Shown here piece after piece: positions 1,430-34,300 of a stretch of DNA of 46,417 nucleotides (the stretch's first letter is position 1; each line of letters opens with the position of its first letter). The position numbers and the translations under genes are program-made. The notes under the pieces were generated by a model. It searched no databases, was not told the origin of the DNA, and saw only the letters and a program-made list of their open reading frames with translations. Origin of the DNA: an uncultured Oscillospiraceae bacterium (lineage in GTDB: Bacteria; Bacillota; Clostridia; Oscillospirales; Ruminococcaceae); contig CASEAH010000068.1 of assembly GCA_949285935.1 (NCBI GenBank), forward strand, positions 1 through 46,417. Direction: 5' to 3'.

Positions 1430-1931
1430 GTTATCCTACTCCCTATTCCAAAGATGGTTGAATCAAATATTCCCTGCCGGGACAAAATTTCCCCAACAGG
1501 CCGGGGGAATGTTTATGCAAATTACAAAGACAGCGGAACCCCCTGTTTCCTCCCGGGTACGCCCCTCCAAGCAGACGGGGCCTGTGAGCCAGTTTTTCGA
1601 GGCAGCTCCGCCCGGGGCCGTGTTGCCAGGCGTTTTTCCCCAACGGATGGGCTTGCTTCAGTAAATCCTTCCGGCAGCTTCGCACCGGGGGTGTTGCCGG
1701 ATGGTTTTTTCCAACAGATGGGGCCTGTCAGCCGGTTTCCCCGGAAGGCTCCGCCCCGAGCTATATTGCCGGATGGTTTCCCAACGGCGGGATACTTCGG
1801 CAAATCCCTCCGGACAACTGCGGCCGGGGATCGTGTTGCCCGGCCCTCCCCCAACAGGCGGAGGGCTTTTCACCAGGCTTCCCCAATGGCGGCATCCGGG
1901 GCCCGCTCCGGGGCAGCATTTCCCGGGTAAC
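1430..1931. repeat. diverged tandem repeat, about 72-bp units, between hisS and aspS
   Basis: The gap between hisS and aspS is largely filled by about six diverged units of roughly 72 bp, with starts visible near 1574, 1646, 1718, 1790 and 1857 and a weaker one near 1497. Recurrent anchors are TTGCCGGATGG, CCCAACRGATGGG and CTCCGCCCCGGG. Units at 1574 and 1718 are more alike than neighbours, as are those at 1646 and 1790, which suggests a 144-bp dimer was duplicated. Reading frames through it are not conserved between units, so it is read as non-coding. Confidence 0.7.
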
Positions 1932-3299
1932 TTATTCCCCGCAGTGGCCGCAGGAGCAGCCGGGTCCGTGGGACTCCCCGCCCTCCAGCCGGTCCATGGC
2001 CTCCTCCAGGTTGGCGTAGGCCGTGTCCATAATGGCTTCGTACATGGCGTCGGCAAAGCCGCCGTCCAGCGGCACCGTCCGGGTCTTGTCGCTGTACATG
2101 CTCTTGAGCACCGCCTGGTTTTTGGCCAGCTCATCATCCCCCAGAACAATGGAGTACTTGGCCCGAAGCTTGTTGGCGTACTTCATCTGGGCCTTGAGGG
2201 AGCGTCCCATGAGGTCGCTCTGGGCGGCAAAGCCCTCGCTGCGCAGCAGGTTGGCCAGCTGGAAGGCCTTGACCGCCGCCGCCGGGCCCATGGAGGCGAT
2301 ATAGACGTCGCAGGTGTTTTCCGGGGGGAAGTCACAGCCCTGGGCCTCCATCACCGAGATGAGCCGTTCCAGGCCCATGGCAAAGCCTACGCCCTCCAGA
2401 TCGGGGCCGCCCAGTTCGGCCAGCAGTCCGCCGTACCGGCCGCCGCCGCCGCAGACCAGGCTCCGGCCTTCCCGGTCGGTGTGTACAAATTCAAAGACGG
2501 TGCGGGTGTAGTAATCCAGCCCCCGGACGATAGAGGGATTTACCTGGTAGGGGATCCCGGAGGCGTCCAGCAGGGTTTTGACCCCGTCAAAGTGCTCCTG
2601 GCAGTCCCCGCAGAGGAAGTCCAGCACCTTGGGCGCGCCCTGAGCGATCACTCCGCAGATGGGGCTCTTGCAGTCCAGAATGCGCATGGGGTTTTTGTCC
2701 AGCCGTTCCAGGCAGGTGGGACAAAGCTTGTCCCGGTACTGCTCAAAGTAGGCCTTGAGGGCCTTGTGGTATTCCGCCCGGCAGGATTTGCAGCCGATGG
2801 AGTTGAGCTCCACATGGATGCCCTCCACCCCCAGGGTCTCATAGGCCTCGTGGACCATGGAGATCAGTTCGCAGTCCGCCGCAGGGGAGGTGGCGCCGTA
2901 CAGCTCCACTCCAAACTGGTGGAACTCCCGGAACCGGCCGCTCTGGGGCTTTTCATACCGGAAGCAGGACAGGACATAGCTCAGCTTCACGGGCAGCGCG
3001 TCCCCCAGCAGGCCGTTCTGGATGGCGGCCCGGCAGAGGCCCGCCGTGCCCTCGGGGCGCAGGGTGATGCTGCGGTCCCCTTTGTCCAGGAAGGTGTACA
3101 TTTCCTTGTTCACCACATCGGTGGTCTCCCCCACCGACCGGTTGAACAGCTCGGTATGCTCAAAGGTGGGCACCCGCAGTTCCCGGAAGCCGAAGAGTTC
3201 AGCGGTGGACAGCAGGGTGTTTTCCACATACCGCCATTTGGATACGTCCCCGGGCAGCAGGTCCTTAGTGCCTCTGGGGGCGGTGGTCAAAAGAGCCAT
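1932..3299 (-). CDS. hisS: histidine--tRNA ligase
   Basis: Charges tRNA-His; class II synthetase of 455 residues, slightly longer than the usual 420-430. Motif 2 is FRYEKPQSGRFREFHQ at about residue 113, the histidine-specific block is IVRGLDYYTRTVFE near 265, and the glycine-rich GGGGRYGGL follows. A Cys-containing insertion (CPTCLERL, then C-x4-C) sits in the middle, as in many Firmicute enzymes. The C-terminus ends in an odd short tail, GPGCSCGHCGE, that could bind a metal or simply be an extension. The start is ATG at 3299, preceded by AGGAGG with good spacing. It is probably transcribed with aspS from the promoter at 3374-3402. Confidence 0.98.
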   Translation of the reverse strand: MALLTTAPRGTKDLLPGDVSKWRYVENTLLSTAELFGFRELRVPTFEHTELFNRSVGETTDVVNKEMYTFLDKGDRSITLRPEGTAGLCRAAIQNGLLGDALPVKLSYVLSCFRYEKPQSGRFREFHQFGVELYGATSPAADCELISMVHEAYETLGVEGIHVELNSIGCKSCRAEYHKALKAYFEQYRDKLCPTCLERLDKNPMRILDCKSPICGVIAQGAPKVLDFLCGDCQEHFDGVKTLLDASGIPYQVNPSIVRGLDYYTRTVFEFVHTDREGRSLVCGGGGRYGGLLAELGGPDLEGVGFAMGLERLISVMEAQGCDFPPENTCDVYIASMGPAAAVKAFQLANLLRSEGFAAQSDLMGRSLKAQMKYANKLRAKYSIVLGDDELAKNQAVLKSMYSDKTRTVPLDGGFADAMYEAIMDTAYANLEEAMDRLEGGESHGPGCSCGHCGE

Positions 3300-3343
3300 G
3301 GGCAGGATTCCTCCTCACAAAAGGTATAAAGCGGCCGCAACGG

Positions 3344-3372
3344 AAAAAGGGGCAGACCGCCTGTCTGTCCCC
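3344..3372 (-). terminator. intrinsic terminator upstream of hisS
   Basis: On the minus strand GGGGACAGAC pairs with GTCTGCCCC (one bulged A, 5-nt loop) and is followed directly by TTTTT. It lies 237 bp after the mgsA stop and 45 bp before the hisS start, so it most likely ends the mre-minD-mgsA transcript. Confidence 0.75.
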
Positions 3373-3373
3373 T

Positions 3374-3402
3374 ATCATAGCACAGAATTTTGCTGTTGTC
3401 TC
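3374..3402 (-). promoter_or_regulatory. candidate SigA promoter for hisS-aspS overlapping the terminator
   Basis: Minus strand -35 GAGACA (3402-3397), 17-nt spacer, -10 TATGAT (3379-3374). The expected start near 3368 falls inside the 5' arm of the terminator hairpin, so a transcript starting here would lack the GGGG half of the stem. No T-box consensus was found in this leader. Confidence 0.5.
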
Positions 3403-3608
3403 TATCTTTTTCCGCCCTTTTTCCTCCGGGAGGGTAACAGAGAGCCATTGCCGGAGGCAAAGCCGTACCGGCAGGGCGTTCCTGGCGCCGGCGGGAGGTA
3501 AAAGCGGGCGGTCACCTTCCGTAAATAAGCGGGCGATCCGTCGCGCAGGCCGGTGGCGGCGCAGCGGACAGGAGCCACATGGTGGAAGAGATGGCGGCGC
3601 AGGCGGGA

Positions 3609-4013
3609 TTATTTCTTGGGGTTGACGATATCCCGCCAATCCAGGTCGCCGTTTTCCAGAGCGTGGATCAAAGCCTCGCCGGTAGCGATGTTGGTGGCCA
3701 TGGGGATATTGTACACGTCGCACAGACGAAGCAGGCTGGCTTCATCCGGCTCGGTGGATTTGGCGTTGATGGGATCCCGGAAAAAGAGCAGCAGGTCGAT
3801 CTCATTGCAGGAAATCCGGGAGGCGATCTGCTGGTCGCCTCCCTGGGAGCCGGCCATAAACCGGACGATATTCAGGCCGGTGGCCTCCGCCACCATTTTG
3901 CCGGTGGTGCCGGTGGCGCAGAGGTTGTGACGGCTGAGGCTGCCGCAATAGGCGATGCAGAACTGGACCATCAGTTCTTTTTTTGCGTCGTGAGCGATGA
4001 GTGCGATGTTCAT
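3609..4013 (-). CDS. mgsA: methylglyoxal synthase
   Basis: Converts dihydroxyacetone phosphate to methylglyoxal and phosphate, a bypass of lower glycolysis used when phosphate is short or sugar phosphates accumulate. The 134-residue product starts [12 protein letters not shown] and has the family blocks [15 protein letters not shown] (with the catalytic Asp of GGDQQ) and FFRDP. It is a compact form without the N- and C-terminal extensions of the E. coli enzyme. The ATG at 4013 is used because an AAAGGAGAG site precedes it; the open frame continues upstream, but that part runs back into minD and looks random. It is the last gene of the mre-mrdA-minD string. Confidence 0.95.
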
Positions 4014-4113
4014 TGGGAACTTCTCTCCTTTCGTCCCTGGCGGAGGGGGGCTCCGCCCTTGCTGTGTTGAAATGTAAATCGGTGTGACGCGGTAGTTTGA
4101 TTGTCCGGGAGGA

Positions 4114-4833
4114 TCAGGACTGGTACAACAGCTCCAGCTCCTCTCCCAGGAGCCTTCCGGCGATGTTGTCCATTTCCTGCCGGGCGGCCGCGCCGCTTTT
4201 GCCGGGGGGCAGGGGCGGCGCATCTTCCCGGGGCAGGGCGCCGATGAGCCGTGCGCCCACCAGGTCGATCACGTCATCCAGATCCCGGATCGCCGGAGAA
4301 GGCATGAAAACCCGGGGGATCATATTGATGATGAGCCGCTGCCGGGTAAGTCCTTCCCCTGCCAAAAAGCCGGAGACCCGGCCTGCGGCCCGCACGGCGG
4401 CTTCCTCGGGGGTAGTCACCAGCAGGGCCAGGCCGCACACCCGGGCCAGCCGGGCAGCCAAAGGCCCGTAACCGGCTCCGCAGTCAAAGATGATATGGTC
4501 AAAGACCTTGCCGGCCTGCCGGCAGAGGGCCTCCAAAGCGGCCTGTGAGGGCAAATAACCGGGATCGGCGGCGGCGGGAAGCAGGCGGATTCCGGTGGGC
4601 CCGTGGACCTGGATGGCATCGGCGGGAGCGCAGCGGCCCTGGGCCACATCGGCAAAATCGAAAACGGTATTGCCTTCCAGCCCCAGCAAAAGATCCAGAC
4701 TGCGGAAGCCCATGTCTCCCTCGGCCAGCAGGACCCGTTTGCCTCGTCGGGCCAGACCGGCGGCGATGCCGGTACAGAGGGTGGATTTTCCCACGCCTCC
4801 CTTGCCTGACGCCACCAAAATGATCTCTGCCAC
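4114..4833 (-). CDS. minD: MinD-family septum-site ATPase
   Basis: P-loop ATPase of the MinD/ParA class, expected to act at the membrane in division-site placement. The 239-residue product has the deviant Walker A GKGGVGKS at residues 10-17, the A' aspartate in [11 protein letters not shown], and Walker B IIFDCGAG. The last 25 residues (from AARQEMDN to ELELLYQS) could form the amphipathic membrane helix of MinD. GTG at 4833 is the start because AGGAGG lies 8 nt before it; an upstream in-frame ATG at 4893 has no ribosome site. MinC and MinE are not in the window. The position after mrdA is conserved in Clostridia. MinD is preferred over a chromosome-partition ParA because of this context. Confidence 0.88.
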
Positions 4834-5099
4834 CGCTGTGTCCTCCTGAAACCAACAATGCTCCCTGCCTCTGTAAAAAACTGGAAGAGGCAAGGAGATA
4901 CCATTACTATTGTATAGTTTAGCACAAAAAGTGCCGCTTTGAAAACCCCTTTTAACCTCAATTCAAACAAATTTCATAGAAAATTTTTGAACCTTTGCCT
5001 CCGCGCCCGTAAGAGGTGTATCTCTATAGAGTCGTCCCGGGCCGGTCATGGATATCTTCGGGTCTACTCCCAGGCACCGGGCAAAAAAGAAGGGGCCGC
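4834..5099. other. intergenic region upstream of minD
   Basis: About 270 bp without a supportable gene. It has an A+T-rich stretch (4905-4995) unlike the rest of the window. On the minus strand TACAAT near 4908-4913 could be a -10 for minD, but no convincing -35 was found. The neighbouring dispersed hairpin element begins near 5100. Confidence 0.5.
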
Positions 5100-5258
5100 C
5101 GCAAAATGAAAATGCAATGGCGGTCTGCACAAAGAATGTGAGACAAACTATGAAAACCGGCCCTCAAAGGAAGCGGTTCTGCTTCTTTGGAGGACCGGTT
5201 TTTGTGCCTTCTTTTTTGGCGAGGCTGTTTTGCAGCAGCTCATTCCAGATTCTGTGCT
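5100..5258. repeat. dispersed hairpin element, copy A
   Basis: Located just 3' of mrdA. It shares with 28540-28690 (opposite strand) the blocks ACAAAGAATGTGAG, AAAGGAAGCGGTTCTGCT and GGCGAGG-TRTTTTGC, and more distantly matches 28105-28262. The core is a long hairpin: AAAACCGGCCCTC pairs with GAGGACCGGTTTT, with an inner AAAGGAAGC/GCTTCTTT stem. T-runs on both sides mean it could end transcription in either direction, here of mrdA. Confidence 0.7.
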
Positions 5259-5275
5259 GCGGCCTCAGGAGACCG

Positions 5276-7333
5276 TCAGGGAAGCAGCTGGCCGGGGTTG
5301 GGAACCTCTTCGGCGGCAGGCTTGCCGAAAAAGTACTGCTCGGCAATGGCCCGGGCCACAGGGGCGCCGGTGTAGCCGTGCCAGCCCTTTTCAATAACCA
5401 CGGCAATGGCGATCTCCGGGTCCTCAGCGGGAATATAGCAGATATAGGTGGAGTTGGGGTAAGCGTGGGTTTCGGGGGTACCGGTCTTGGAGGCCACCGT
5501 GAGGGGGAAGCCGGTCCAGTAGCTGGAGGAGGTGCCCCCCGGCTGGGTAGCCATAATCATGCCGTCCCGGACGATGCGGAAGGCCTCCGGGTCGGCGGGG
5601 ACCTGGTCCACCACCTGGATTTCGGTTTCTTCCACCGTCTCGCTGAAATCGTAGGATTTGATGCTCTTTACCAGATGGGCCTGCATCCGGGTGCCGTTGT
5701 TGGCCAGGGTAGCCACATAATTGGCCATCTGCACAGGGGTAAATTTATGATCCAGCTGGCCGATGGCCGACTGCACCACATAGCCGGGCCCCCATACGTC
5801 TCCGGCGGCCTCCCGGGTGGCGGGAGAGGAAAGCTGTCCGGCGCTTTCCGGCACCTCGATGCCGGTCTTGGAGCCCAGGCCGAAGTGGGCGCTGTACTCG
5901 TTCATTTTTTCGATGCCCAGGCGGTAGCCCAGTTCATAAAAGAAAATATTGCAGGAGACCTGAAGCGCGGTTTTGACATTGCGGGGGCCATGGACTCCCA
6001 GGCACCGGGGGTGATAGTCAGAGAAGCGGGTGTACACGCCGCCGCAATCAATGATGGTGTCCTCCTGGATGAGGCCCTCGGCCAGCCCGGCGATGGAAAC
6101 CGACGGCTTATAGATGGAACCGGCGGAGTATTCCCCCATAAAGGCGCGGTTATACAGGGGGGAAGGGCTCTGGGTGGAAAGCTGGGCAAAGTTCTGATTA
6201 AAGGTGGAGGCGTCGTAGTTGGGATAGGTGGCGGCGGCCAGAATCTCTCCGGTGCCCACCTGAATGGCCACCACGGCGCCGGCGTCCGCTTCCCGTCCCT
6301 CGCCTTCCGGGGCGGTCTTCTGCAGGTTCAGGATGGTTTCCTCCAGAGAGGTCTGGGCCACCTGCTGCAGGTCCCGGTCCAGGGTCAGCACCACCGTGTT
6401 GCCGGGAACCGGCTCCACGGTAATCTCGTCCCCGATCACCTCGCCCTGGGCGTTGAGGGTGATCCGCCGTTCTCCGCTCTGGCCCCGGAGCTGTTCCTCA
6501 AAGGCCTGCTCGATGCCGTCCTTGCCAATGGATTCGTTGCCTTTGTAGCCCTGCTTGTTCTCCTGGCTCCACAGCTTCCCCTCCTCCCGGAGCTGGGCCA
6601 TTTCCTCGGCGTAGATGGGGCCGATGGACCCGATGATATGGGGAGCCAGACTGCCGTTGACATACTCGCGGTTGGTGGACTGGACCACATCCACCCCGGG
6701 GAGCATATAGCCCCGCTCCTGGACGGTGGTGGACACCAGTACCCCTACGTCCTGGGCAAAGGTATAGGTGTTGGCCAGGGAAAAGTCCCGGCGGGCCATT
6801 TCGTACCGCACACCGGCGATCTTCCGCATGGTGGCGGCGTCATATTCCCCCAGGTCATAAAACTTGGCGTCCGCCAGCCAGTGGATGCAATCTTCCGCGG
6901 TGGCGTATTCGTTGACCCCTACATAGCTTTTGAGCCGGGCCACATCCGATTCCCGCCCCTCGATAAATTCAAAGGGCTCCTCCCAGGTAATGGGCAGATT
7001 GTCGATCCAGCTCTGGCCCATGCTTTCCATCAGCTGGATGAGATCGGCGATGACGGGATTGGCCTTGTTGCCGTAGGGCAGAAAGGTCTGATCCAAAATG
7101 ATGTCATAGCTGGCGCGGTTAATGGTAAAGGGGCGTCCGTACCGGTCCACGATCTCGCCCCGGGCGGCGGCCACCGTCTGGGTGGTCACCGAGCCGGCGG
7201 TGGCTTTGCTTTTATAATATTCTCCCTGGGAGATCTGGAGGAGCATCAGCTGGTAAACAAACACGGCCAGCACCAGAAAGATCAACCCTCCCAGCATCAG
7301 ATAACGCTGGAGTTCTTTTTTTTCCATGGTCAT
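5276..7333 (-). CDS. mrdA: penicillin-binding protein 2 (elongasome transpeptidase)
   Basis: Membrane-anchored class B PBP that cross-links peptidoglycan during lateral wall growth, partner of the MreBCD scaffold. The product is 685 residues. There is one N-terminal membrane segment (about 14-35, LMLGGLIFLVLAVFVYQLML), then the PBP dimerisation region, then the transpeptidase with SIYK (nucleophile Ser406, Lys409), SCN and KTG motifs. The start is ATG at 7333, with AGGAGG just upstream; a second ATG two codons later is nearly as good. RodA is not adjacent. Downstream lies a dispersed hairpin element that may act as its terminator. Confidence 0.95.
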   Translation of the reverse strand: MTMEKKELQRYLMLGGLIFLVLAVFVYQLMLLQISQGEYYKSKATAGSVTTQTVAAARGEIVDRYGRPFTINRASYDIILDQTFLPYGNKANPVIADLIQLMESMGQSWIDNLPITWEEPFEFIEGRESDVARLKSYVGVNEYATAEDCIHWLADAKFYDLGEYDAATMRKIAGVRYEMARRDFSLANTYTFAQDVGVLVSTTVQERGYMLPGVDVVQSTNREYVNGSLAPHIIGSIGPIYAEEMAQLREEGKLWSQENKQGYKGNESIGKDGIEQAFEEQLRGQSGERRITLNAQGEVIGDEITVEPVPGNTVVLTLDRDLQQVAQTSLEETILNLQKTAPEGEGREADAGAVVAIQVGTGEILAAATYPNYDASTFNQNFAQLSTQSPSPLYNRAFMGEYSAGSIYKPSVSIAGLAEGLIQEDTIIDCGGVYTRFSDYHPRCLGVHGPRNVKTALQVSCNIFFYELGYRLGIEKMNEYSAHFGLGSKTGIEVPESAGQLSSPATREAAGDVWGPGYVVQSAIGQLDHKFTPVQMANYVATLANNGTRMQAHLVKSIKSYDFSETVEETEIQVVDQVPADPEAFRIVRDGMIMATQPGGTSSSYWTGFPLTVASKTGTPETHAYPNSTYICYIPAEDPEIAIAVVIEKGWHGYTGAPVARAIAEQYFFGKPAAEEVPNPGQLLP

Positions 7334-7431
7334 TCCACCTCCTGTGGGTATGGGACGGGGCCTGGGCAGGCCCGGGTAAAAAAGAAAGTCCGGACCCATG
7401 GCCGGGCCCGGCGGAAACGCCTCCCGGGGCG

Positions 7432-7953: not shown

Positions 7954-8381
7954 TGGAGTCCTCCTTGACGGGGCACTGTGGGTGAGGCCCTTTGCAGGCA
8001 CCCGGAAAACCGCCCTGAAACGCCCCGCTCTTCTGCAGGAGGGCAGCCTTCCATGGGATCTCCCAAACCCCTTGGCTCTCCCCTCTCCGGCTTCCGGGAA
8101 AAGCGCTTCCCTGTCCCGTTGGAAAATGAGACCAAAATTCCCGCCTGGGGAAGGTCTGTTTCCTTTCCCGGCGCTCCCCCGCCGGCTCCCAAAAGAGCAA
8201 AAAAATTCCCGGCCTGGTTCAGGATGGGTAGCGGAAACCCGGGGACGATTTATGGCCAAAGGCAAAATCCTTTTCCGGTCATCCGGAAAAAATATCTGTC
8301 CCTTGCGCCCTCACAGACAGTGCCTCACAGGAATCTGTGGAAAGCCACCCTGGCAGCTTCCCGGCTCCGCCACAAAACAAA
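7954..8381. other. mreC-mreD spacer, non-repeat part
   Basis: Roughly 430 bp inside the mre operon with no recognisable gene. Open frames exist on both strands but have no ribosome site, no family resemblance and strong base-composition bias only. An inverted repeat AGGATAAAG/CTTTATCCT spans 8382-8432 at its boundary with the repeat array. Confidence 0.5.
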
Positions 8382-8424
8382 AGGATAAAGTTTTTCAGAA
8401 ACGGGAACCCATTGGGTGCTTTAT

Positions 8425-8780
8425 CCTCTATGGCGCTGCTGCGCGAAAGCAAGGAAAATGCCTCCCTGCCCCTGTTGGGCCTCCTGGCCCCCATCCTGCG
8501 GGAAACGCTGCGTAAAACGGGAATCAGGGCTGTTCCCCGATGGGAACAGCTTCGGTACTTTGGCCTGTTGGGCCTCCTGGCCTGCATTCTGCGGGAAACG
8601 TTGCGTAAAACGGGGCTCAGGACTGTTCCCCCGATGGGAACAGCTTGGGTACTTTGTATCTATGGCGCAGTTTTGTGAAAGAAAGAAAAATGCTTTCCTG
8701 GGCCTGTTGGGCCTCCTGGCCTGCATCCTGCGGGAAAGGCTGCGAAAAACGGGGACCAGGACTGTTCCCCGAAAGCAGAT
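8425..8780. repeat. tandem repeat inside the mre operon, about 93-bp core unit
   Basis: Three copies of a core (GGCCTGTTGGGCCTCCTGG ... CTGTTCCCC), beginning near 8471, 8562 and 8701. A second block, TCTATGGCGC followed by GAAAGnAAGnAAAATG, precedes the first and third copies (near 8428 and 8660). Each of the first two cores ends in a hairpin, CTGTTCCC/GGGAACAG, then TACTTT. Copies differ at about one base in ten, so the duplication is not recent. Confidence 0.8.
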
Positions 8781-8850
8781 AAAGCCTCATTCCACTTTCC
8801 GCCTTTTCCGCCACGGAAGCGGAGGACGGAAAAAGGCCGGAAGCCGCGGG

Positions 8851-10941: not shown

Positions 10942-10942
10942 G

Positions 10943-12012: not shown

Positions 12013-12080
12013 GATAAAAGCACCTCGTTTGTATGTCTTGGATGGTATGCCGCCCTGCTCAGGATGGCCGGGCTTCCCGG

Positions 12081-12390
12081 CCCCGGCCTTTGAGGGGACG
12101 ATCCCGGGGATTTTCCCTAAAATCCGGGAATGCTGTGGCAAATTTTCCCGGTAGTTCTCGTGGAATGTATCAAAGAGATACAGCCCCGGCCTTTGAGGGG
12201 ACGATCCCCGGAATTTTTGCCCCAATCCGGAAATTCCGCGGTAAATTTTCCTGGTGGTTCTTGTGGAATGCATCAAAAAGATACGACCCCGGCCTTTAAG
12301 GGAACGACCCCCGGGACTTTCCCCCAATTTGGGGATGCCCGCCGGCAAATTTCTCCGGTAGTTCTCGTGAAATGTATCAAGGGGATACGC
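12081..12390. repeat. three tandem 103-bp units upstream of dut
   Basis: Units begin at 12081, 12184 and 12287, each opening with CCCCGGCCTTTRAGGG and closing with a block like TGGAATGTATCAAAGAGATA. Unit length is fixed at 103 bp while bases differ at about one in six positions. They fill the gap between the NusG-domain gene and dut and lie in the likely 5' leader of dut. Confidence 0.9.
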
Positions 12391-12412
12391 CCGGGCGCCC
12401 TGTCCCAGCCTG

Positions 12413-16305: not shown

Positions 16306-16521
16306 TCCGTACAGACAGTTACCCTGCTGTGTGCGTGATTGCCGCTTTATATAATCCAACACTTTTTTAACGGGAACGGAATCTCCAGAGGACGGATTGC
16401 AGACCTCCCGGCTCCGGCCGGACGAAGGGAGCAGGAACTCCCGGGACGTGCCCACCTGTCGTAAAGACGGGTTTTATCTGGCGGTGTAACGGCATTGGCG
16501 GGGTTTCTTTTGCAGACAAAC

Positions 16522-16555: not shown

Positions 16556-16686
16556 CTCCCAGTCTGCCATCTTCCGCTCCGGGACTGCAAAAGGTCCCCG
16601 CGCCAGTGTTCCGCAGGGACCGGCAGATGGAGGGCTGGGCGTTGGCGGGAATACGGGGAGCCGCTGCCGGCGTCATACCGGCTCAT

Positions 16687-17115
16687 CTCCCCTTTCCCAT
16701 GGAGCCGCAGGAAAGCGTTTGGGATTGGAACATGATTTTGTCCTAAGGCCCTTCCCAGCCCTCCGCCTCAGGAAAGCCGCTGTTTTCCGGCAGATCCATT
16801 TTACCGGCACGGTGCCCGGGGGCGGGGGAACCGGCGGCTGCAGGCCTGAGGTCGTTTGGGAGAGCGGGCGGAGGAACTCTGCCGCCGGCGTTTATACAAG
16901 CTGAATCTCCCTTTCGTCCGGAGCCGCAGGAAAGCATTGGGGATTGGAACATGATTTTGTCCCCAGGCTTTTCCCGGCCCTCCGCCTCAGGAAAGCCGCT
17001 GCTTTCCGGCAGATCATTTTGCCGGCACGTCGCCCGGGGGCGGGAGAACCGGCGGCTGCAGGCTGGGGCGTGAGAACAGAAATCAAATCTTGGGCGGAGG
17101 CATTTACACAGGCCC
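16687..17115. repeat. two tandem copies of a 219-bp unit, DUF1292-tcdA gap
   Basis: Anchors GGAGCCGCAGGAAAGC at 16701 and 16920, GATTGGAACATGATTTTGTCC, CCTCCGCCTCAGGAAAGCCG and ACCGGCGGCTGCAGGC recur at a 219-bp offset. A shorter echo (TCTTTTGCAGACAAACGG near 16506) resembles sequence near 17122, suggesting a third decayed copy. No conserved reading frame. The whole gap from 16306 to 17375 holds no gene that I can support. Confidence 0.85.
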
Positions 17116-24582: not shown

Positions 24583-24672
24583 AATCTTTGTATGACGCAG
24601 CGGCCGCGGAAACGTTTCCGGCACCGGGAGTCCCGCGTCATTTTCCTTGCAGACGAAGGAAAGGAGCATGTT

Positions 24673-27075
24673 ATGCAACAGCACAAGAGCAAAGAGGAGA
24701 TTCAGGAAGCCATCGGACGCAAGCTGAACGGACAGCTGGGCGTATCTCCCAGACAGGCGTCGGATGAGCAGTTCTATAAAGCGGCGGCCCTGGTGGTCCG
24801 GGACCTGGCGGAAGAGAAGCGCCGGGCTTTTCTGGCCCAGTGCAACGCCACGGGCCGCAAGCAGGTCTACTACCTGTCCATAGAATTCCTCATGGGCAAG
24901 AGCCTGAAAAACTCCCTTTACAACCTGGGGCTGGTGGAGGAGTTCCGGGAGGCTCTGGCCCACTACCGGGTCAAGCTGGAGAACCTCTACCGCTGTGAGC
25001 CGGATCCCGGCCTGGGCAACGGCGGCCTGGGACGGCTGGCAGCCTGCTATCTGGACGGCCTGGCCACCGACGGCTACCTGGCCATGGGCCACAGCATTCT
25101 GTATGAATACGGGATGTTCAAGCAGAGGATCTCCGACGGCTGGCAGAGCGAGCTGCCCGACTACTGGCTTCCCGGCGGGGACGTGTGGCTGGAGGCGGTG
25201 CCGGAGCATACGGTGGAGGTGCGCTTTGGCGGCCAGCTGGATGAAAAGTGGGACAATGGCCACCACATGACCCATCATCGGGGGTACACCACTGTGCTGG
25301 CAGTGCCCTACAATATGTATGTCACCGGGTACGACACCCAGGCGGTGAGCCTGCTGCGTCTGTGGCAGGCCAAGAGCCCCGGCATCGATATGGAGCTGTT
25401 CAACAAGGGCGATTATCTGGGAGCATTCGGCAAAAACTCCTACGCCGAGGTCATCAGCAAGGTGCTGTACCCCAACGACAACCATGTGGAGGGGAAGCTG
25501 CTGCGGCTGCGCCAGCAGTATTTCCTGGTCTGTGCCGCGGTCAGCGACATTTTCCGCCGGCATATGTCCGTTTATGGAACGGTGGACAATTTTGCCGAAA
25601 AAAATGCCATCCACATCAACGACACCCACCCCACCCTGGCAATCCCCGAGCTGATGCGCCTGCTGCTGGATGAGTGCGGCTACAGCTGGGACAAAAGCTG
25701 GGACGTGGTGGTGAATACCTTTGCCTACACCAACCATACCGTTATGGCAGAGGCCCTGGAGCAGTGGGATGTGAACCTGGTCCAAAGCCTGCTGCCCCGG
25801 ATCTACCAGATCATTCAGGAGATCGACCGCCGCCACCAGGCCGCCCTGCGGGAGCGGTACCACCTGACCGAAGGCGAAGTGCGGCGGATGGCCATTATCA
25901 GCGACGGCAAGATCCGCATGGCCTACCTCTGCCTGGTGGGCAGCCACAGCGTCAACGGTGTGGCCGCCATCCATTCCCAGATCATCCGGGATACCATCTT
26001 CCACGATTTTTACAAGATCCAGCCCGGCAAGTTCACCAATGTCACCAACGGTATTGCTTCCCGCCGGTGGCTGATGCAGTCCAACCCCCGTCTCAATGAC
26101 CTGATCAAAGAGCTGATCGGAGACGGCTTCCTCCATGACTTTTCCCAGCTGCGGCGGCTGGACGAATACCGGGAAGACAAAACCGTCCTGGAGCGGCTGG
26201 CCGCCATCAAGGCGGAAAATAAACTGGCTTTTGCCCAGTGGCTGGGGGAGGAGCGGGGGATCGTTCTGGACCCCTCTTCCCTCTTTGACGTCCAGGTCAA
26301 ACGCCTTCACGAGTACAAGCGGCAGCATCTCAACGCCCTCCACATCCTGTGGAGATATCTGGAGTTGAAAGATCATCCCCAGATGGATTTCCAGCCCCGC
26401 ACCTGCCTGTTCGGCGCTAAGGCTGCCCCTGGCTACTACCTGGCCAAGCAGATCATCAAATTTATCTGCGACCTGGCGGAACTGCTGGAGGGAGATCCCG
26501 ACGTCCGCCAGAGGCTGAAGATCGTTTTCCTGGAAGAATACAACGTCACCATGAGCGAACACCTGATGCCTGCCAGCGAGATCTCGGAGCAGATCAGCCT
26601 GGCCGGCACTGAGGCCTCCGGCACCGGCAACATGAAGCTGCAGCTGGGCGGCGCCCTCACCATGGGCACTCTGGACGGCGCCAATGTGGAGATCGCCAAT
26701 GCGGTGGGAGACGAAAATATCTTTATCTTTGGCATGAAAGCTGCGGAGGCGGCGGAATTGAAGGCCCGGGGCTACCGGCCCGGGGACTTTATTGCCGGAA
26801 GCCAGCGGCTGCAGCGGGTCCTGGCCTTCCTGGACGCTCAGGCGGGCCGTTATCCCTCCTTTGGCCAGATCGCCGGCTACCTGCGTACCGCAGACCCCTA
26901 CATGGCCCTGGCGGATTTTGAAAGTTATGTGGAAGCGCAGGAGCGTGCCCAGCGGATCTATGCCGGAGACAACCTGGCCTGGCAGCGGATGAGCCTGAGC
27001 AATGTGGCCGGGTCGGGAATCTTCTGCGCCGACCGTGCCATCCGGGAATATGCCCGGGACATCTGGCATCTGTGA
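24673..27075 (+). CDS. glgP: glycogen/alpha-glucan phosphorylase
   Basis: Phosphorolyses alpha-1,4-glucan ends to glucose-1-phosphate using pyridoxal phosphate. The 800-residue product has the N-terminal block YYLSIEFLMGKSLKNSLYNLG, ALGNGGLGRLAACYLDS-like DPGLGNGGLGRLAACYLDG, and NDTHPTLAIPEL. The PLP site is EASGTGNMK with the Schiff-base lysine at 655. ATG at 24673 is chosen because AAGGAG lies 6 nt upstream; the frame extends further back but reads as random. The last 13 codons are duplicated in degenerate form downstream (see the 100-bp repeat). It has its own consensus promoter. Confidence 0.98.
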   Translation: MQQHKSKEEIQEAIGRKLNGQLGVSPRQASDEQFYKAAALVVRDLAEEKRRAFLAQCNATGRKQVYYLSIEFLMGKSLKNSLYNLGLVEEFREALAHYRVKLENLYRCEPDPGLGNGGLGRLAACYLDGLATDGYLAMGHSILYEYGMFKQRISDGWQSELPDYWLPGGDVWLEAVPEHTVEVRFGGQLDEKWDNGHHMTHHRGYTTVLAVPYNMYVTGYDTQAVSLLRLWQAKSPGIDMELFNKGDYLGAFGKNSYAEVISKVLYPNDNHVEGKLLRLRQQYFLVCAAVSDIFRRHMSVYGTVDNFAEKNAIHINDTHPTLAIPELMRLLLDECGYSWDKSWDVVVNTFAYTNHTVMAEALEQWDVNLVQSLLPRIYQIIQEIDRRHQAALRERYHLTEGEVRRMAIISDGKIRMAYLCLVGSHSVNGVAAIHSQIIRDTIFHDFYKIQPGKFTNVTNGIASRRWLMQSNPRLNDLIKELIGDGFLHDFSQLRRLDEYREDKTVLERLAAIKAENKLAFAQWLGEERGIVLDPSSLFDVQVKRLHEYKRQHLNALHILWRYLELKDHPQMDFQPRTCLFGAKAAPGYYLAKQIIKFICDLAELLEGDPDVRQRLKIVFLEEYNVTMSEHLMPASEISEQISLAGTEASGTGNMKLQLGGALTMGTLDGANVEIANAVGDENIFIFGMKAAEAAELKARGYRPGDFIAGSQRLQRVLAFLDAQAGRYPSFGQIAGYLRTADPYMALADFESYVEAQERAQRIYAGDNLAWQRMSLSNVAGSGIFCADRAIREYARDIWHL

Positions 27076-27297
27076 CCCCGGGCCTGGAAGGAGCCCCGGC
27101 AAAGGCCACCTGGGCGGGGGAGTCAGCATCCCCCCTGCCATCCGGGAAGTTGCCCGGGATAGCTGGCATCTGTGCCCCCTGGGCCTGGAAGAAGCCCCGG
27201 GAAAGGCCGGCTGGGCGGGAGAGGCAGTATCTCCCCTGCCGTCTGGCAACATACCCGGCGCATACGGCAGCGATGATCCGGCATTTTTTAAAAACCC
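27037..27297. repeat. 100-bp tandem duplication starting inside the 3' end of glgP
   Basis: Units begin at 27037, 27137 and 27238, each opening GCCRTCYGG. The first contains the last 12 codons and stop of glgP (IREYARDIWHL) plus 61 bp beyond; the second reads IREVARDSWHL with the stop changed to TGC; the third is partial. Blocks CCTGGAAGRAGCCCCGG and TGGGCGGGRGAG recur in the first two. Confidence 0.9.
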
Positions 27298-27927: not shown

Positions 27928-28104
27928 TCCGCTGAAAATGCGGGAGAAAGTCCCTTGCTGCGGCGGCAGATCCGGGACGGATGAGCCGGAAAAGATTTGG
28001 TGCCGTCCTGGGGTGGGTCCCGATGAAGGAAAACCCGCTGCTTCCCTGTCTTACCGGATGGGGAAAGTGTTTGGAACCATAAGATTTTTAATGTGGGCAA
28101 AAGG

Positions 28105-28539: not shown

Positions 28540-28690
28540 ACGGTTCAAAAATGGGACTGCGGCAAAATAACCTCGCCGGAAACAATATACAAAATCGGTC
28601 CAGAAAAAGCAGCAGAACCGCTTCCTTTCGGGGCCGATTTTCTTTGCTTGCCTCACATTCTTTGTACGGATTACCCTTGCATCTTTGTTT
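28540..28690. repeat. dispersed hairpin element, copy B (inverted)
   Basis: Read on the minus strand it matches copy A closely: ACAAAGAATGTGAGGCAA, AAAATCGGCCCCG, AAAGGAAGCGGTTCTGCTGC, GGACCGATTTTG, GGCGAGGTTATTTTGC. It lies 3' of the secreted repeat-protein gene and could be its terminator. Confidence 0.7.
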
Positions 28691-28920
28691 TGTGACAGAC
28701 TCCAAAGAAGGTGCAACTGCCGGAGCAAGGGATGGAGCTTTGAAAAATGATGCAGTTCCTGGAGGATGGCCTATCCTTGGGCCCCGCCTGCACCGGGGCA
28801 GGCCGCAGATTTTTCCGGAGAGCAGAAAAACCGGTGCTTGCTGCCCGTTTACTTCAGGGACCGGAAGCAGCCCAGATACAGGCAGGCTGATTCAAGCTGG
28901 CAGGCTCCCGGTCTGCAAAA

Positions 28921-29484
28921 TCAGGAAAGGCAGGAGCCGTCCCGCAGCCGGTGGCCATTTCCCTGTCCGCCGCCCATGCGGCCGTTGCCCAGCCCAGCGC
29001 CCGTGCCGTCGCAGCGGCCATTGCCGACGCCGTTGCCCAGCCCGGCACCTGTGCCGTCGCAGCGACCGTTGCCAACGCCGTTGCCCAATCCGGCGCCCGT
29101 GCCGTCACAGCAACCGTTGCCAACACTGTTGCCCAATCCGGCGCCTGTGCCGTCACAAAGGGCCTGGCGCTCCTTCATGGCCTCCAAAAGGCTGTCAGCC
29201 TGCTCCTGGGTAAGCTGTCCGTCGGCTACCCGCGCCTCCAGACGTTCCTCACGCAGGGCCAGCATGGCTTCCTGAAATTCCTCCAGTTTGCCGGCACCGG
29301 CGGCGATGGCGCCGCAGCTAAGACCCTCTTCCCGCAGTTCCGCCACCTCCTGGGCCGATTTTCCGGTGACACCGGCCACAGCCTCGGCGGGGGTTTGCCA
29401 TTCCGCGGCCAGGGCGGTGCCGGTGGTGACAGCCAGGGCGGCTGCCAGCAGTCCGGCAGCGGCGATGGTTTTTATGATTTTCAT
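28921..29484 (-). CDS. secreted Gly/Cys-repeat protein, possibly DUF2680/YckD-like
   Basis: 187-residue exported protein. Signal peptide at about 1-26 (KTIAAAGLLAAALAVTTGTALA, cut before AEWQTPAEA), then two helical segments (VTGKSAQEVAELREEGLS; LEARVADGQLTQEQADSLLEAM, reminiscent of DUF2680). The C-terminal half is Gly/Asn-rich with a 16-residue repeat CDGTGAGLGNxVGNGx in three full copies plus a part copy, each starting with Cys. ATG at 29484 has AAGGAG upstream. It is divergent from the two-component operon, with shared putative operator boxes. Function unknown; the Cys-Asp spacing could suit metal binding. Confidence 0.75.
   Translation of the reverse strand: MKIIKTIAAAGLLAAALAVTTGTALAAEWQTPAEAVAGVTGKSAQEVAELREEGLSCGAIAAGAGKLEEFQEAMLALREERLEARVADGQLTQEQADSLLEAMKERQALCDGTGAGLGNSVGNGCCDGTGAGLGNGVGNGRCDGTGAGLGNGVGNGRCDGTGAGLGNGRMGGGQGNGHRLRDGSCLS
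28985..29157 (-). repeat. 48-bp coding tandem repeat
   Basis: Three full units and one partial unit, each encoding CDGTGAGLGN plus six variable residues. Period is exactly 48 bp, so the frame is kept. Confidence 0.9.
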
Positions 29485-29554
29485 GGTCAAAATTGCTCCT
29501 TTCGTGTGTTCCGTCAGGCATGATCCTTCCGGTGACTTTATGGTACCCCTCCTG

Positions 29555-29614
29555 TGTGGCAGTCCTGTGGCAAAATGATAAAATTTTTGGGACAGATTTT
29601 CTCCTTTTGCCACA
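29555..29614. promoter_or_regulatory. candidate response-regulator binding boxes
   Basis: TGTGGCA at 29555 and 29566 are direct repeats with an 11-bp period, the spacing used by OmpR/PhoB-type dimers. A third copy is inverted (TGCCACA, 29608-29614), just before the -35 of the regulator promoter. They lie between the divergent secreted-protein gene and the regulator. Confidence 0.5.
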
Positions 29615-29617
29615 CCG

Positions 29618-29646
29618 TTGCCTTATTCATGGGATATCTTTATAAT
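29618..29646 (+). promoter_or_regulatory. promoter of the two-component operon
   Basis: TTGCCT, 17-nt spacer, TATAAT; about 50 bp before the regulator start. Confidence 0.85.
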
Positions 29647-29694
29647 GAAACCGAATGAAAATCAATCAGAACCGTCTGGATGGAGGAGAAAGAT

Positions 29695-30375
29695 ATGGCC
29701 CTGATGCTCATTGCGGACGATAACCCCCAGCTGCTCAACATCCTGCGCAGCGCAGCCCGGAAAGAAGGTTTTGAGACGGTACTGGCGGAGGATGGCGAAA
29801 AGGCTCTGGAGGAGTTCCGGGCCCGGCGGCCCCAGATCGTCCTGCTGGACGTGATGATGCCCGGCCTGGACGGCTTCCAGGTCTGCCGCGAGATCCGGAA
29901 GGAATCGGATGTGCCGGTGATCATGGTTACCGCCCGGGGGGAGGATTTTGAGAAGATCATGGGACTGGATATCGGGGCGGACGACTATATTGTCAAGCCC
30001 TTTTCCCCGGGAGAGGTGATGGCCCGGGTGCGGGCGGTGCTGCGGCGGGTGGAAAAAACCGGCCCCGGAAAAATCTTGGAAACAGAGGGCCTGCGGATCA
30101 ATCTGGAGGATTACAGCGTCACCGTGGACGGGCATCCCGTGCCTCTTACCAAGCGGGAGGTGGAGATGCTCTGGACCCTGGCGGGAGGACGGAACCGGGC
30201 CTTTACCCGGGAGATGCTGCTGGATCTGCTGTGGGGATATGATTATTACGGCGACCCCCGTACCGTGGATTCCCATGTCAAGCGGCTGCGGGCCAAGCTG
30301 GATGCCTTTCCCCACCCACGATGGGAGATCCGCACCATCCGGGGGGTAGGCTACAAATTTGAGGTGATCTCATGA
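29695..30375 (+). CDS. OmpR/PhoB-family response regulator
   Basis: 226-residue DNA-binding response regulator. The receiver domain (1-120) has the acidic pair ADDN, phosphoacceptor Asp52 in LLDVMMPG, the Thr of VTAR and the Lys of IVKPF. The C-terminal winged helix (130-226) includes LTKREVEMLWTLA, TVDSHVKRLRAKL and TIRGVGYKF. ATG at 29695 is chosen (GGAGGAG upstream) over the in-frame ATG at 29680. Its stop overlaps the kinase start (ATGA), so the two are translated together. Likely targets are its own promoter and the divergent secreted protein. Confidence 0.96.
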   Translation: MALMLIADDNPQLLNILRSAARKEGFETVLAEDGEKALEEFRARRPQIVLLDVMMPGLDGFQVCREIRKESDVPVIMVTARGEDFEKIMGLDIGADDYIVKPFSPGEVMARVRAVLRRVEKTGPGKILETEGLRINLEDYSVTVDGHPVPLTKREVEMLWTLAGGRNRAFTREMLLDLLWGYDYYGDPRTVDSHVKRLRAKLDAFPHPRWEIRTIRGVGYKFEVIS

Positions 30376-31910
30376 AAGGAAAAATCGTATGGCGGCTGGC
30401 AGCCTGTTTTGGGGCTGTGCTGCTGCTGTTTGCGGCGGTGCTGGGAGGAGTGTTCACGGTCCTGTTCCGGGAGCATACCGTGGCCCTCAACCGGGCATCC
30501 ATGGAGGCCCGGGCGGTTTCGGTGGCCGATACCCTGGCCCAGCTGCCGCTTCAGGAGGCGGGGGAGCCTTACGGTGGGGATCCCGGCCAAACGGTTCTGC
30601 CCTCTCAGGGGATGGGCGGCGGAAAGGGCTATGGAGGCGGTTCGGGAGGCGGTAACGGCCTGGGTTATGGGTCCTATCTGCGGTATCTGGACCAGCTGGC
30701 CATGGCGGAGATCTGGGTGGTGGACCAGGACCTGCACCTTCTTACCTACGGTCACGGACAAGCCCCCTCCGATTCTTCCCAGCTTCCCCAAAATGCCGAG
30801 GAAATCGTCCACCGGGTCTTTGAAGGAGAAGTGACCTATGGCGAGGAATTTTCGGGACTGCTGGAAACCCCTTCCCTGACGGTGGGGGCGCCTATCCGCC
30901 GGGGGGAGACCGTCGTGGGAGCCGTGCTCCTGCATTCGCCGGTGAGCGGTGTGGAGGAAGCGGTCCGCCAGGGGTTGTCCCTGCTGGGGGCGGCAGTAGC
31001 GGCGGCCCTGGTGCTGGCAGGCGGGGCGGCGGTGGCTCTTTCCTGCCGGTTCACACGCCCCCTGCGGCAGATGGAGCAGACTGCCCTGCAGCTGTCGGAA
31101 GGCCGCTATGATGTCCGCACCGGCGTCAGGCAGGAGGACGAGATCGGGCGTTTGGCCTGCACCCTGGATCAGCTGGGCCAGCGTCTGGATGAAGCGGAGC
31201 GGCAGCGGGCGGAGCTGGACCGGATGCGGGAGGATTTTGTGGCAAGCGTCTCCCATGAACTGCGCACCCCGGTGGCGGTGCTGCGGGGATCCCTGGAGCT
31301 GCTCCGGGACGGAGCGGTGGAGGACCCGGGAGAAAGAACCGAATACTACGACCAGATGCTTCGGGAAAGCCGGCATCTGGAGCGGCTGGTCAATGATCTG
31401 CTGGATCTGACCCGGCTGCAGGACGCACAGTTCCGGTTGGAGATGGCTCCTCTGGACCTGCGGGAAACGGTGCGGGACGGGGTGCGCTCCCTGCGCCCCG
31501 CAGCAGAGCCGCGGGAAGTGTCCCTGGCGGCGGAACTGCCTGAGGAACCCTGCGTCATCACAGGAGACTATGGCCGGGTACGGCAGCTGCTGGTGATCCT
31601 GCTGGACAATGCCGTCAAGTTTTCCGATCCGGGAGGACAGGTAGAAACAGCGGTAAAAGTGGACTCTGACAAGGTGGTTCTTACTGTCACGGACCATGGA
31701 GTGGGGATTCCTCCGGAGGAACTGCCCCGGATCTTTGACCGGTTCCGAAAGTCCCGGAGCCGCCGCAACCGTACCGGCACCGGTCTGGGACTGGCCATTG
31801 CCCGGGAGATCGCCCAGCGCCACGGCGCGGAGATCCGGGCGGAAAGCGGCGGTGGGACCACCCGGTTTACCGTGGCCTTCCCCGCTGCGGCAGAAAATTC
31901 TGCAGAATGA
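30372..31910 (+). CDS. two-component sensor histidine kinase
   Basis: 512-residue membrane kinase partnered with the upstream regulator. TM1 is at about 8-30 and TM2 at about 200-222 (LLGAAVAAALVLAGGAAVAL), enclosing an external sensor of about 170 residues. A HAMP domain follows (RPLRQMEQTALQL to DEIGRLACTL), then HisKA with phosphoacceptor His295 in SHELRTP. The HATPase domain has LLDNAVKFS (N box), DHGVGIP (G1) and GTGLGLAIA (G2). The sensor holds an odd Gly-rich loop (GMGGGKGYGGGSGGGNGLGY, near residues 80-100). Signal unknown. Topology and motifs are typical. Confidence 0.96.
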   Translation: MKGKIVWRLAACFGAVLLLFAAVLGGVFTVLFREHTVALNRASMEARAVSVADTLAQLPLQEAGEPYGGDPGQTVLPSQGMGGGKGYGGGSGGGNGLGYGSYLRYLDQLAMAEIWVVDQDLHLLTYGHGQAPSDSSQLPQNAEEIVHRVFEGEVTYGEEFSGLLETPSLTVGAPIRRGETVVGAVLLHSPVSGVEEAVRQGLSLLGAAVAAALVLAGGAAVALSCRFTRPLRQMEQTALQLSEGRYDVRTGVRQEDEIGRLACTLDQLGQRLDEAERQRAELDRMREDFVASVSHELRTPVAVLRGSLELLRDGAVEDPGERTEYYDQMLRESRHLERLVNDLLDLTRLQDAQFRLEMAPLDLRETVRDGVRSLRPAAEPREVSLAAELPEEPCVITGDYGRVRQLLVILLDNAVKFSDPGGQVETAVKVDSDKVVLTVTDHGVGIPPEELPRIFDRFRKSRSRRNRTGTGLGLAIAREIAQRHGAEIRAESGGGTTRFTVAFPAAAENSAE

Positions 31911-31983
31911 GGCCCCTCCATTCCTCCAAGGCACGAGAGACAGAAGCCCTGGGACGAGCCGTTTGCAAAAGCCATAAAACCGT

Positions 31984-32030
31984 AAAAATGCCCCGCACCA
32001 TGGACTGGAATCTATGGCGCGGGGCATTTG
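31984..32030 (+). terminator. hairpin terminator after the histidine kinase
   Basis: AAATGCCCCGC pairs perfectly with GCGGGGCATTT, extended by CCAT/ATGG inside. A-run before and TTT after allow function on both strands. Confidence 0.7.
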
Positions 32031-32243
32031 GCTGATTCTGAAAGCCGTCAGTTATACTGTAAAAGGTGATCCATAAAAAGCAGGGCTTTGCTCCAGGCAT
32101 CCTCCCCCATAAGCCCAGAGGGGCGGATTGCAATGACGGAACCCTGACAGGCGGGCAGCCGCTCCTTTACAGCCGTCGGGCCGGGTGACAGGGGTAAGCG
32201 GCTGCATACAGAATGAATCATGCCATAACGATCCAGGTCCGAA

Positions 32244-33563
32244 CTATTCTCCCCGCTCCCGCACCACGATGCGGATGGGGGTGCCGTCCATGGCGAACTG
32301 CTCCCGAATCTGATTTTCCAGATACCGCTGGTAGGAGAAATGGAACAGCTCCGCCTGGTTGCAGAAGCAGACAAAGGTAGGAGGGCGGGTAGAGGCCTGG
32401 GTCATGTAGTAGATCTTCAGCCGTTTGCCCTTGTCGGAGGGGGGCTGCACCCGGGCGGTGGCGTAGGCCAGCAGGTCGTTGAGACGGCCGGTGGAGATAC
32501 GCAGGGAGTTCTTTTCGTTGACCAGGTTGATCAGTTCAAAAAGCTTGTCCACCCGCTGCCCTGTCAGGGCGGAGAGAAAGACAAAAGGCACATAGGACAT
32601 AAAGGAAAAATCGTTTTCCAGCTTCTGGCGGAATTCCTGCATGGTGCGGCCATCCTTTTCCACCGCATCCCATTTGTTCACCGCCACCACGCAGGCCTTT
32701 CCCTGCTGGTGGGCGTAGCCGGCGATCTTGCTGTCCTGCTCGGTAAAGCCCTCGGTGGCGTCAATGACCATGACTGCCACGTCGGCCCGGTCCACCGCCA
32801 TATAAGCCCGGAGGACGCTGTACCGCTCAATGTTCTCCTCCACCTTGCTTTTGCGGCGGATGCCGGCGGTGTCGATGAAGATATACTTGCCAAAAGCGTT
32901 TTCCACAGCGGTGTCGGTGGAATCCCGGGTGGTGCCTGCCATGTTGGAGACAATGACCCGCTCCTCCCCCGCAATGCGGTTGACCAGGGAACTTTTGCCC
33001 ACATTGGGCTTTCCGATGACCGCTACCTTGATGTAGTCCTCGGGGTACTCCTCTTCCCGGTCAAAGTCCAGGTATTCAAAGCAGGCGTCCAGCAGTTCGC
33101 CGGTGCCGTGGCCGTGGACGGAGGAGACGGGGATGGGGTCTCCCAGGCCCAGGTTATAGAACTCGTAAAAATCCGGGGGCACGTCCCCGATGCGGTCGCA
33201 TTTGTTGACGCAGAGGACCACCGGCTTGCCGCTGCGCAGCAGCAGGGCGGCGATGTCGCTGTCGTTGGCGGTGACGCCGGAGCGCAGGTCGGTGACCATA
33301 ATGATGACATCGGCGCTGTCAATGGCGATCTGGGCCTGGGCCCGCATCTTGGCAAGGATCATATCCTCGGTCCGGGGCTCGATGCCGCCGGTATCCACCA
33401 GCATGAATTCCCGGCCCCGCCATTCACAGGGGGCGTCGATCCGGTCCCGGGTACCGCCGGGGGTATCCTCCACAATGGCCAGCCGCTGGCCGATGAGCTT
33501 GTTGAAAAGGGTGGATTTGCCCACATTGGGGCGCCCCACCACCGCAATCAGAGGTTTTGCCAT
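32244..33563 (-). CDS. der: ribosome biogenesis GTPase Der (EngA)
   Basis: Essential double GTPase acting in 50S subunit assembly. The 439-residue product has two G domains. The first has GRPNVGKST (8-16), DTPGG and NKCD; the second has GKPNVGKSS (about 184), DTAGI and NKWD. A C-terminal KH-like domain follows (IYYMTQASTRPPTFVCF, GTPIRIVVR). Start ATG at 33563 with AAAGGAG upstream. The upstream DUF512 gene is a frequent neighbour in Clostridia. plsY, often downstream, is absent. Confidence 0.98.
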   Translation of the reverse strand: MAKPLIAVVGRPNVGKSTLFNKLIGQRLAIVEDTPGGTRDRIDAPCEWRGREFMLVDTGGIEPRTEDMILAKMRAQAQIAIDSADVIIMVTDLRSGVTANDSDIAALLLRSGKPVVLCVNKCDRIGDVPPDFYEFYNLGLGDPIPVSSVHGHGTGELLDACFEYLDFDREEEYPEDYIKVAVIGKPNVGKSSLVNRIAGEERVIVSNMAGTTRDSTDTAVENAFGKYIFIDTAGIRRKSKVEENIERYSVLRAYMAVDRADVAVMVIDATEGFTEQDSKIAGYAHQQGKACVVAVNKWDAVEKDGRTMQEFRQKLENDFSFMSYVPFVFLSALTGQRVDKLFELINLVNEKNSLRISTGRLNDLLAYATARVQPPSDKGKRLKIYYMTQASTRPPTFVCFCNQAELFHFSYQRYLENQIREQFAMDGTPIRIVVRERGE

Positions 33564-33914
33564 GGGCTGTCACTCCTTTCTGTATCAGGATGGACGGTTC
33601 CGGGACAGAATATTGCCGGAAACCGAAAACTTTTATGGATCTTTCAGCGGGAAAGGCGCAGAGTCCGGTAAAAGCGGAGACCGCCATGCTTCCCCAGGTA
33701 CCCCGGAGGGGCGGCTGGGAAAACCAGAGACGAAAGGCGGGCTGCCGGAAGGGCCTGCGGGTCAGAGACGGTTGGGTGCAGAGACGGGGATGAAGAAGTC
33801 AAACTCCTTTTCCCGCCGGTTTCCGCCAGGCTCTGAAAAATTTCCATGCCTTTTTCTCCCATCCTCAGGCCAAAGGCCACAGGTGGAAATTCTGCCACCT
33901 CCTGCTTCTGCCTC

Positions 33915-34300
33915 TTAAAAATATTCAGATGGAAGCATGGAAAGTGATCTTTCCTGTCCCACAGATGGGAGCGGGAGAAGGGCTCCGGGAACTTTTCTCA
34001 TAGCGATTTTTCCCTGTTCCACAGATGGGAGACCCTGGAAAGACCTGCTTCCGGGTCGGGATGTGGGGAATACTTGGCCTTCCATCCCCGCTGTTCCCGG
34101 CAGGGACACCGGGAGACAAAACCCGTTGGCGCACCGGTTATAAACCGGGCATCCCGGGCATTCCCGGCGGGCATGGTGCCAAATCCCGCTCTTCCCCTTA
34201 AAAACATTCAGATGGAAGCATGGAGGGGATTCTTTCCTGTCCCACAGGCTGCAAACCATGGAAAGACCTGCTTCCGGGCCGGGGTGTGGGGAAAATATTC
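33915..34300. repeat. 282-bp duplication between DUF512 gene and der
   Basis: CTTAAAAAYATTCAGATGGAAGCATGG occurs at 33916 and 34198. TTTCCTGTCCCACAG and GGAAAGACCTGCTTCCGGG also recur in both copies, with an extra internal TCCCTGTTCCACAGATGGGA near 34010 in the first. The rest of the 33564-34298 gap shows no gene. Confidence 0.8.

Follow-up and report, generated by a model that had tools for sequence, protein, structure and literature searches.

Repeats of the repetitive extragenic palindrome (REP), bacterial interspersed mosaic element (BIME) and miniature inverted-repeat transposable element (MITE) types are dispersed and intergenic. Bacteria are also well known to duplicate DNA locally and in tandem, through slippage or unequal exchange; close direct repeats and local tandem duplication in bacteria were reportedly treated by Achaz et al. 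in 2002. Bacterial satellites, defined in the portion of Subirana and Messeguer (2019; PMC6749651) used here as at least four repeats of 10-200 nt, with few in most prokaryotes, and variable tandem repeats are already in print (we drew on parts of PMC6749651, PMC4060949, PMC2884548 and PMC9879509). Here we describe six intergenic arrays of diverged tandem repeats, A1 to A6, on contig CASEAH010000068.1 of an uncultured Oscillospiraceae bacterium, the whole of which (46,417 nucleotides) is referred to as the window. The arrays are very probably the remnants of separate local tandem duplications which have decayed near-neutrally since, and thus the outcome of an ordinary mutation process and no new genetic element. 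A sequence-only reading of the window knew of no described process acting so often in one short stretch; the well-known duplication process and the published satellites and variable tandem repeats leave this unsupported.

All six arrays are confirmed as real (Table 1) and lie close to the positions first given for them, according to Tandem Repeats Finder (TRF), self-BLAST and profile searches. The gaps that carry them measure 252-1070 bp, matching the 250-1070 bp given earlier. Self-BLAST finds copies in all six, at 71-86% identity at best and with best E values of 2e-9 to 2e-55. A gap was counted as carrying an array if it held a direct repeat of at least 40 bp, 40-800 bp apart, at E 1e-6; gaps of at least 200 bp were taken in the window and gaps of 150-3000 bp elsewhere, and the scan of the sampled stretches excluded gaps above 3 kb or with N. 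By this test 6 of the 19 window gaps carry an array, in excess of shuffled gaps (0/86, and 0/118 in each of three further shuffles). The window count rests on Pfam-trained gene calls because self-trained calling misread the strands there; with the latter, seven out of 25 gaps scored, the additional one overlapping a repeat within a reading frame. At score 30 TRF reports only A2, A3 and A5, and alignment was required for A1, A4 and A6. Whole-gap autocorrelation exceeds the null for A2-A5 and stays within it for A1 (z 4.1 vs a shuffle maximum of 4.5) and A6 (3.9 vs 4.0), while local alignment is significant for these two as well. The weakest array is A1, whose repeat occupies the extent given in Table 1 and not all of 1430-1931 as first assigned. 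The placement of the arrays in six gaps is likewise right in the main, but A5 starts within glgP and A6 enters the DUF512 gene. In A2 a 138-bp stretch is also repeated at offset 233 (TRF, self-BLAST, profile search), A5 has perhaps a degenerate third copy (E 0.075), and one copy of A6 contains ~60 bp extra, part of which resembles a further internal duplication (E 0.002). The genes adjoining arrays include hisS, aspS, mreC, a probable mreD (a sub-threshold NCBIfam match, 25.7 bits vs a cut-off of 34.85), dut, glgP, der and the DUF512 gene.

Table 1. Arrays and other features of the window (positions in nucleotides of the window)
Feature	Position	Strand	Site or annotation	Description and basis
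A1	1566-1840		hisS-aspS spacer, 1417-1931	two copies, offset 144; weaker 72-75 bp sub-units at 1601, 1673 and 1748; self-BLAST (E 2e-9, 72% identity), profile search; aspS and hisS named by NCBIfam
A2	8403-8772		gap mreC-probable mreD, 7954-8850	93-bp unit, present as two full copies and a partial one
A3	12078-12396		gap 12013-12412, dut to NusG-domain-II gene	three copies of 103 bp; TRF (3.1 copies), self-BLAST, profile search
A4	16663-17063		downstream of 6S RNA	two copies of ~183 bp, offset 218; self-BLAST (86%)
A5	27033-27258		starts 43 bp inside glgP	unit of ~100-101 bp, two copies; TRF, self-BLAST, profile search
A6	33893-34313		DUF512-der spacer, 33564-34298	two copies, offsets 284 and 223; self-BLAST, profile search
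6S RNA	16318-16508			Rfam
glgP	24592-27075	+	glycogen phosphorylase	Pfam PF00343, gene model; stop at 27075
DUF512 / radical-SAM gene	34299-35618	-		Pfam PF04459; last 15 bp within the A6 repeat
158-bp dispersed element	5082-5239, 28557-28692		two window copies	at least 46 matches in the genome at about 41 places or more

As judged from its histidyl-tRNA synthetase (HisRS), the source genome belongs to the gut genus Angelakisella of the order Oscillospirales; the nearest named HisRS record is that of A. massiliensis (77% identity), and the best-matching HisRS other than its own is 78% identical. Its draft assembly (G000; 2.44 Mb in 110 contigs, 89% complete, 3.4% contamination) was compared with a further nine genomes of Angelakisella, several of which are incomplete; the type-strain assembly of A. 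massiliensis (six contigs) is referred to as G002. In its own assembly each array has a single match, itself, except that A6 (33893-34298) has one further hit of 34 bp, and the six do not hit one another. The mutual dissimilarity noted earlier is thereby borne out, and these single matches and absent cross-hits rule out one spreading repeat. In a control with real sequence, different window gaps (at least 200 bp) were compared in 171 pairs; one pair matched, through a dispersed element rather than an array. Across the nine other genomes only matches of 24-40 bp were obtained for A2-A6 (for A4 in three and for A5 in five of these genomes, among 40 scored candidates), three of the four listed for A5 being the end of glgP, and A3 finds nothing besides itself in the 10 genomes of the genus; the search with A1 covered its own genome (1430-1931: one match, itself). 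Several unlinked copies, as in a dispersed repeat, MITE or REP, are thus found for none of the six arrays. As in local tandem duplication, their copies are adjacent and in the same orientation, and the sequence is absent elsewhere in the 89% complete assembly apart from the short A6 hit. Coding repeats are excluded as a general account, since the offsets 103, 101, 218, 233, 284 and 223 are not multiples of three; the offsets 72, 144 and 93 are.

The origin of the duplicated DNA is clear for A5. Its first unit consists of the last 43 bp of glgP and downstream DNA; both recur in the second unit at 83% identity, without the stop codon. The glgP-end part is matched in three sister genomes (G002, G006 and G009). 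Over 40 bp the two A5 copies differ at five sites; A. massiliensis sides with the in-gene copy at four of them and with the second copy at none. It follows that DNA spanning the end of glgP, which is conserved in the three sisters, was duplicated in place. The gene ends two codons earlier here than in G002 and G006. For A6 the donor is suggestive (15 bp of the DUF512 gene end).

For three of the six array gaps, relatives have the same gene pair with a shorter spacer. The hisS-aspS spacer has 515 bp here and 8-201 bp in 64 of the 72 readable loci of relatives (six others have 1.4-3.3 kb, two a negative artefact value), and none of the 72 carries a repeat; the set comprised 89 loci, the window's own included and some genomes twice, of which 17 were uncounted because one gene lay beyond the stretch or the orientation was opposite to the one that was read. 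Similarly, the DUF512-der spacer of 735 bp compares with -19 to 256 bp in 26 of 27 readable loci (29 loci in all) and 643 bp in the remaining one, with a repeat in none of the 27, and the mreC-mreD spacer of 897 bp with 236 bp in G002 and 232 bp in G006. The mreB-maf spacer is the reverse case (215 bp here vs 670 bp in G002), and upstream of dut G002 carries an array of its own, which belongs to a dispersed family. The recurrent local duplication with subsequent divergence put forward by the sequence-only reading agrees with these results: the arrays are private, their copies are direct, the end of glgP was copied, spacers of relatives are shorter, and the copies have decayed without compensatory excess (see below). 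As for the enzymatic route and the order of events, each array would have arisen by one or more local tandem duplications, through replication slippage or unequal sister-strand exchange, copying whatever spacer DNA was there and sometimes taking in the end of a neighbouring gene. The extra copy would then be tolerated because it lies outside a working gene, and would decay by mutation; once diverged, the copies should seldom recombine away, which may be the reason for their persistence.

A comparison of 18 copy pairs of this genome, of which the window supplied nine, fits neutral decay. Compensatory changes are as frequent as expected (7 vs 6.9), transitions and transversions number 212 and 90, and mismatches clump (p <0.05) in two pairs. 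Predicted base pairs were kept in 521 cases vs 507 expected (standard deviation 6), and since this slightly exceeds expectation, a weak structural constraint on the copies may exist. It is improbable that the units are functional, e.g. as small structured RNAs or protein-binding sites, and that their copy number is selected. Beside the kept base pairs, such a function could explain the folding of the 93-bp copy of A2, which is stronger than that of shuffled sequence (z ~-2.5 on both strands), and the position of several arrays next to housekeeping genes; however, folding scores are mostly unremarkable, clumping is rare, and A2-A6 have only the short matches mentioned above across nine partly incomplete genomes of the genus. 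The compensatory changes between copies that mark a structured RNA are not in excess, and Rfam at gathering threshold returns nothing in any array and only a tRNA and the 6S RNA in the window. Nor do the arrays consist of short near-identical repeats with unique spacers, as clustered regularly interspaced short palindromic repeats do, their units being diverged and their offsets 72-284 bp. Selection for longer spacers or leaders, which had been proposed earlier as an alternative, is not upheld: in relatives three of the gene pairs have shorter spacers, covariation between the copies is absent, and kept pairs exceed expectation only slightly.

The arrays could also be tandem relics of dispersed, once mobile families, the other copies of which were lost or became unrecognisable. 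That arrays do arise from dispersed elements in this genus is evident from A. massiliensis, where, of the 10 arrays in the 500 kb sampled, nine have matches in 7-15 bins of 1.5 kb each (their own included), and the window's genome holds dispersed families as well. All 15 arrays sampled in this genome, however, are confined within the sample to the place where they lie, with matches in one or two such bins (two where the array itself straddles a bin boundary), the six of the window are single in the whole assembly bar the 34-bp hit, and the gene end in A5 is hardly expected of an element, which leaves this origin quite improbable. A metagenome assembler that joined strain variants of one region in tandem would produce similar arrays, and the draft nature of the assembly, with its contamination, would allow for it. 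We consider such an artefact highly improbable, as the copies differ by ~9-29%, some arrays have three copies, the glgP-end copy holds just 43 bp of the gene, and the type-strain assembly of A. massiliensis, in six contigs, has intergenic arrays too, mostly of dispersed families. Some points nevertheless weigh against local duplication with neutral decay as a full account: it rests on one genome of this species, the donor sequence is not recognisable for A1-A4, base pairs are kept in slight excess, and the clustering of arrays in the window, described below, is not expected under a uniform duplication rate.

Because the sampled arrays of A. massiliensis are mostly of dispersed families and those of the window's genome private, intergenic arrays have two origins within one genus. 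The remaining array of A. massiliensis has matches in a single bin of its own sample, in two bins of the window's genome and in one of a different genus. The lineage-specific habit suggested by the sequence-only reading is therefore only partly retained: sister genomes do carry intergenic arrays, but those of A. massiliensis are nearly all dispersed families, and G001 has arrays in just 1/60 gaps. All 10 sampled arrays of A. massiliensis are located either on contig C5 or in the part of contig C6 below 0.96 Mb (stretches L064-L068 and L184-L203); the 12 sampled C6 stretches from 1.08 Mb up contain none, and the GC skew flips its sign nearby and again near 2.3 Mb (a post hoc observation).

The array frequency in the window is unusual, as had been claimed: six arrays in 46 kb vs nine in 716 kb of readable sequence (39 stretches) from the rest of the same genome, where 9 of 254 gaps carry one (one of the nine is a 48-bp repeat 696 bp apart and not strictly tandem). 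Per kb the difference is about tenfold. The Poisson probability is 3e-5 before correction for the window having been picked, and Fisher's test on gaps (6/19 vs 9/254) gives p 2e-4. The window was selected because the feature was seen there; multiplied by the ~53 windows of equal size in the genome, the Poisson value becomes ~0.002. Three further arrays in 20 kb of stretch L008 and two in stretch L166 indicate that the clustering extends beyond this window. Arrays occur in 10/180 gaps of A. massiliensis (500 kb), in 1/12 of G006, in 1/132 of seven genomes of other genera combined, and in 0/9 gaps of 50 kb of E. coli K-12. Coding stretches, taken as a control, gave 1/546 in the rest of this genome and 3/393 in A. 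massiliensis.

Among the sampled stretches of its genome the window is the most GC-rich. The GC content at third codon positions of its genes is 0.78, compared to at most 0.76 in the other stretches of at least 9 kb, and that of its spacers is 0.59 with and 0.56 without the arrays, compared to at most 0.55. Its higher GC content could mark a stray contig of another species, which is ruled out by the two copies of the 158-bp dispersed element it contains (Table 1): the element has at least 46 matches in this assembly, where 40 of 53 candidates were scored, and none in the nine sister genomes. Array gaps have a GC content of 0.512 vs 0.493 for other gaps in the rest of this genome (p 0.5), and of 0.528 vs 0.465 in G002 (p 0.001). 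We regard high GC as a correlate of the array density in the window, not as its established cause. Possibly, although we consider it rather unlikely, the GC-rich segment is a duplication hot spot, in which a regional mutational regime of repair, replication or recombination repeatedly makes tandem duplications of 70-280 bp in spacers, ~10 times more commonly than elsewhere in the chromosome, and lengthens even the spacers of conserved gene pairs.

The 158-bp element appears to be species-specific and MITE-like. The consensus of 22 aligned copies has terminal inverted repeats of ~16 bp, and the centre a predicted hairpin between A- and T-runs that resembles a two-way terminator (a window copy folds with z -5.8); no match was found in the nine other Angelakisella genomes, and a target-site duplication was not established. 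A second dispersed intergenic family of ~260 bp (72-77% identity) is present in the window (38393-38655), in L002 (11566-11827) and in L010 (2165-2439), and further families in L082 (3563-3820 and 3929-4077) and L008 (8942-9152); relatives of the L082 family occur also in G002, G004 and G006. In addition, the window contains tandem repeats of 48 bp (28981-29154) and 36 bp (44451-44581) within predicted reading frames; these are probably protein repeats.

The arrays offer a clean case of bacterial spacer growth, in which a gene end is copied into a spacer and then decays, and long spacers occur where the gene pairs of relatives are close. Should the local excess be real, this region would let one ask what predisposes a stretch of chromosome to small duplications. 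Caution is required in that intergenic arrays within one genus may be either private duplications or dispersed families. The open-licence literature, among the matches listed, holds nothing on arrays of Angelakisella. Compared with known systems, the arrays resemble local tandem duplications in their adjacent direct copies, private to one place and decaying, and differ in being far more frequent per kb here than across the remainder of the sampled genome. With REP/BIME or MITE repeats, of which such families occur in this genome, they share the intergenic site, but they lack dispersed copies. Like bacterial satellites, as characterised in the part of PMC6749651 used here, they are tandem repeats with units partly below 200 bp, yet they have two to about three copies, and offsets exceed 200 bp in A4 and A6. 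The tandem repeats of Borg elements (PMC9879509) are likewise many, independently formed and partly intergenic, but those are described as recently formed, fast-evolving and extrachromosomal, whereas the six arrays are degenerate and reside on a contig of housekeeping genes.

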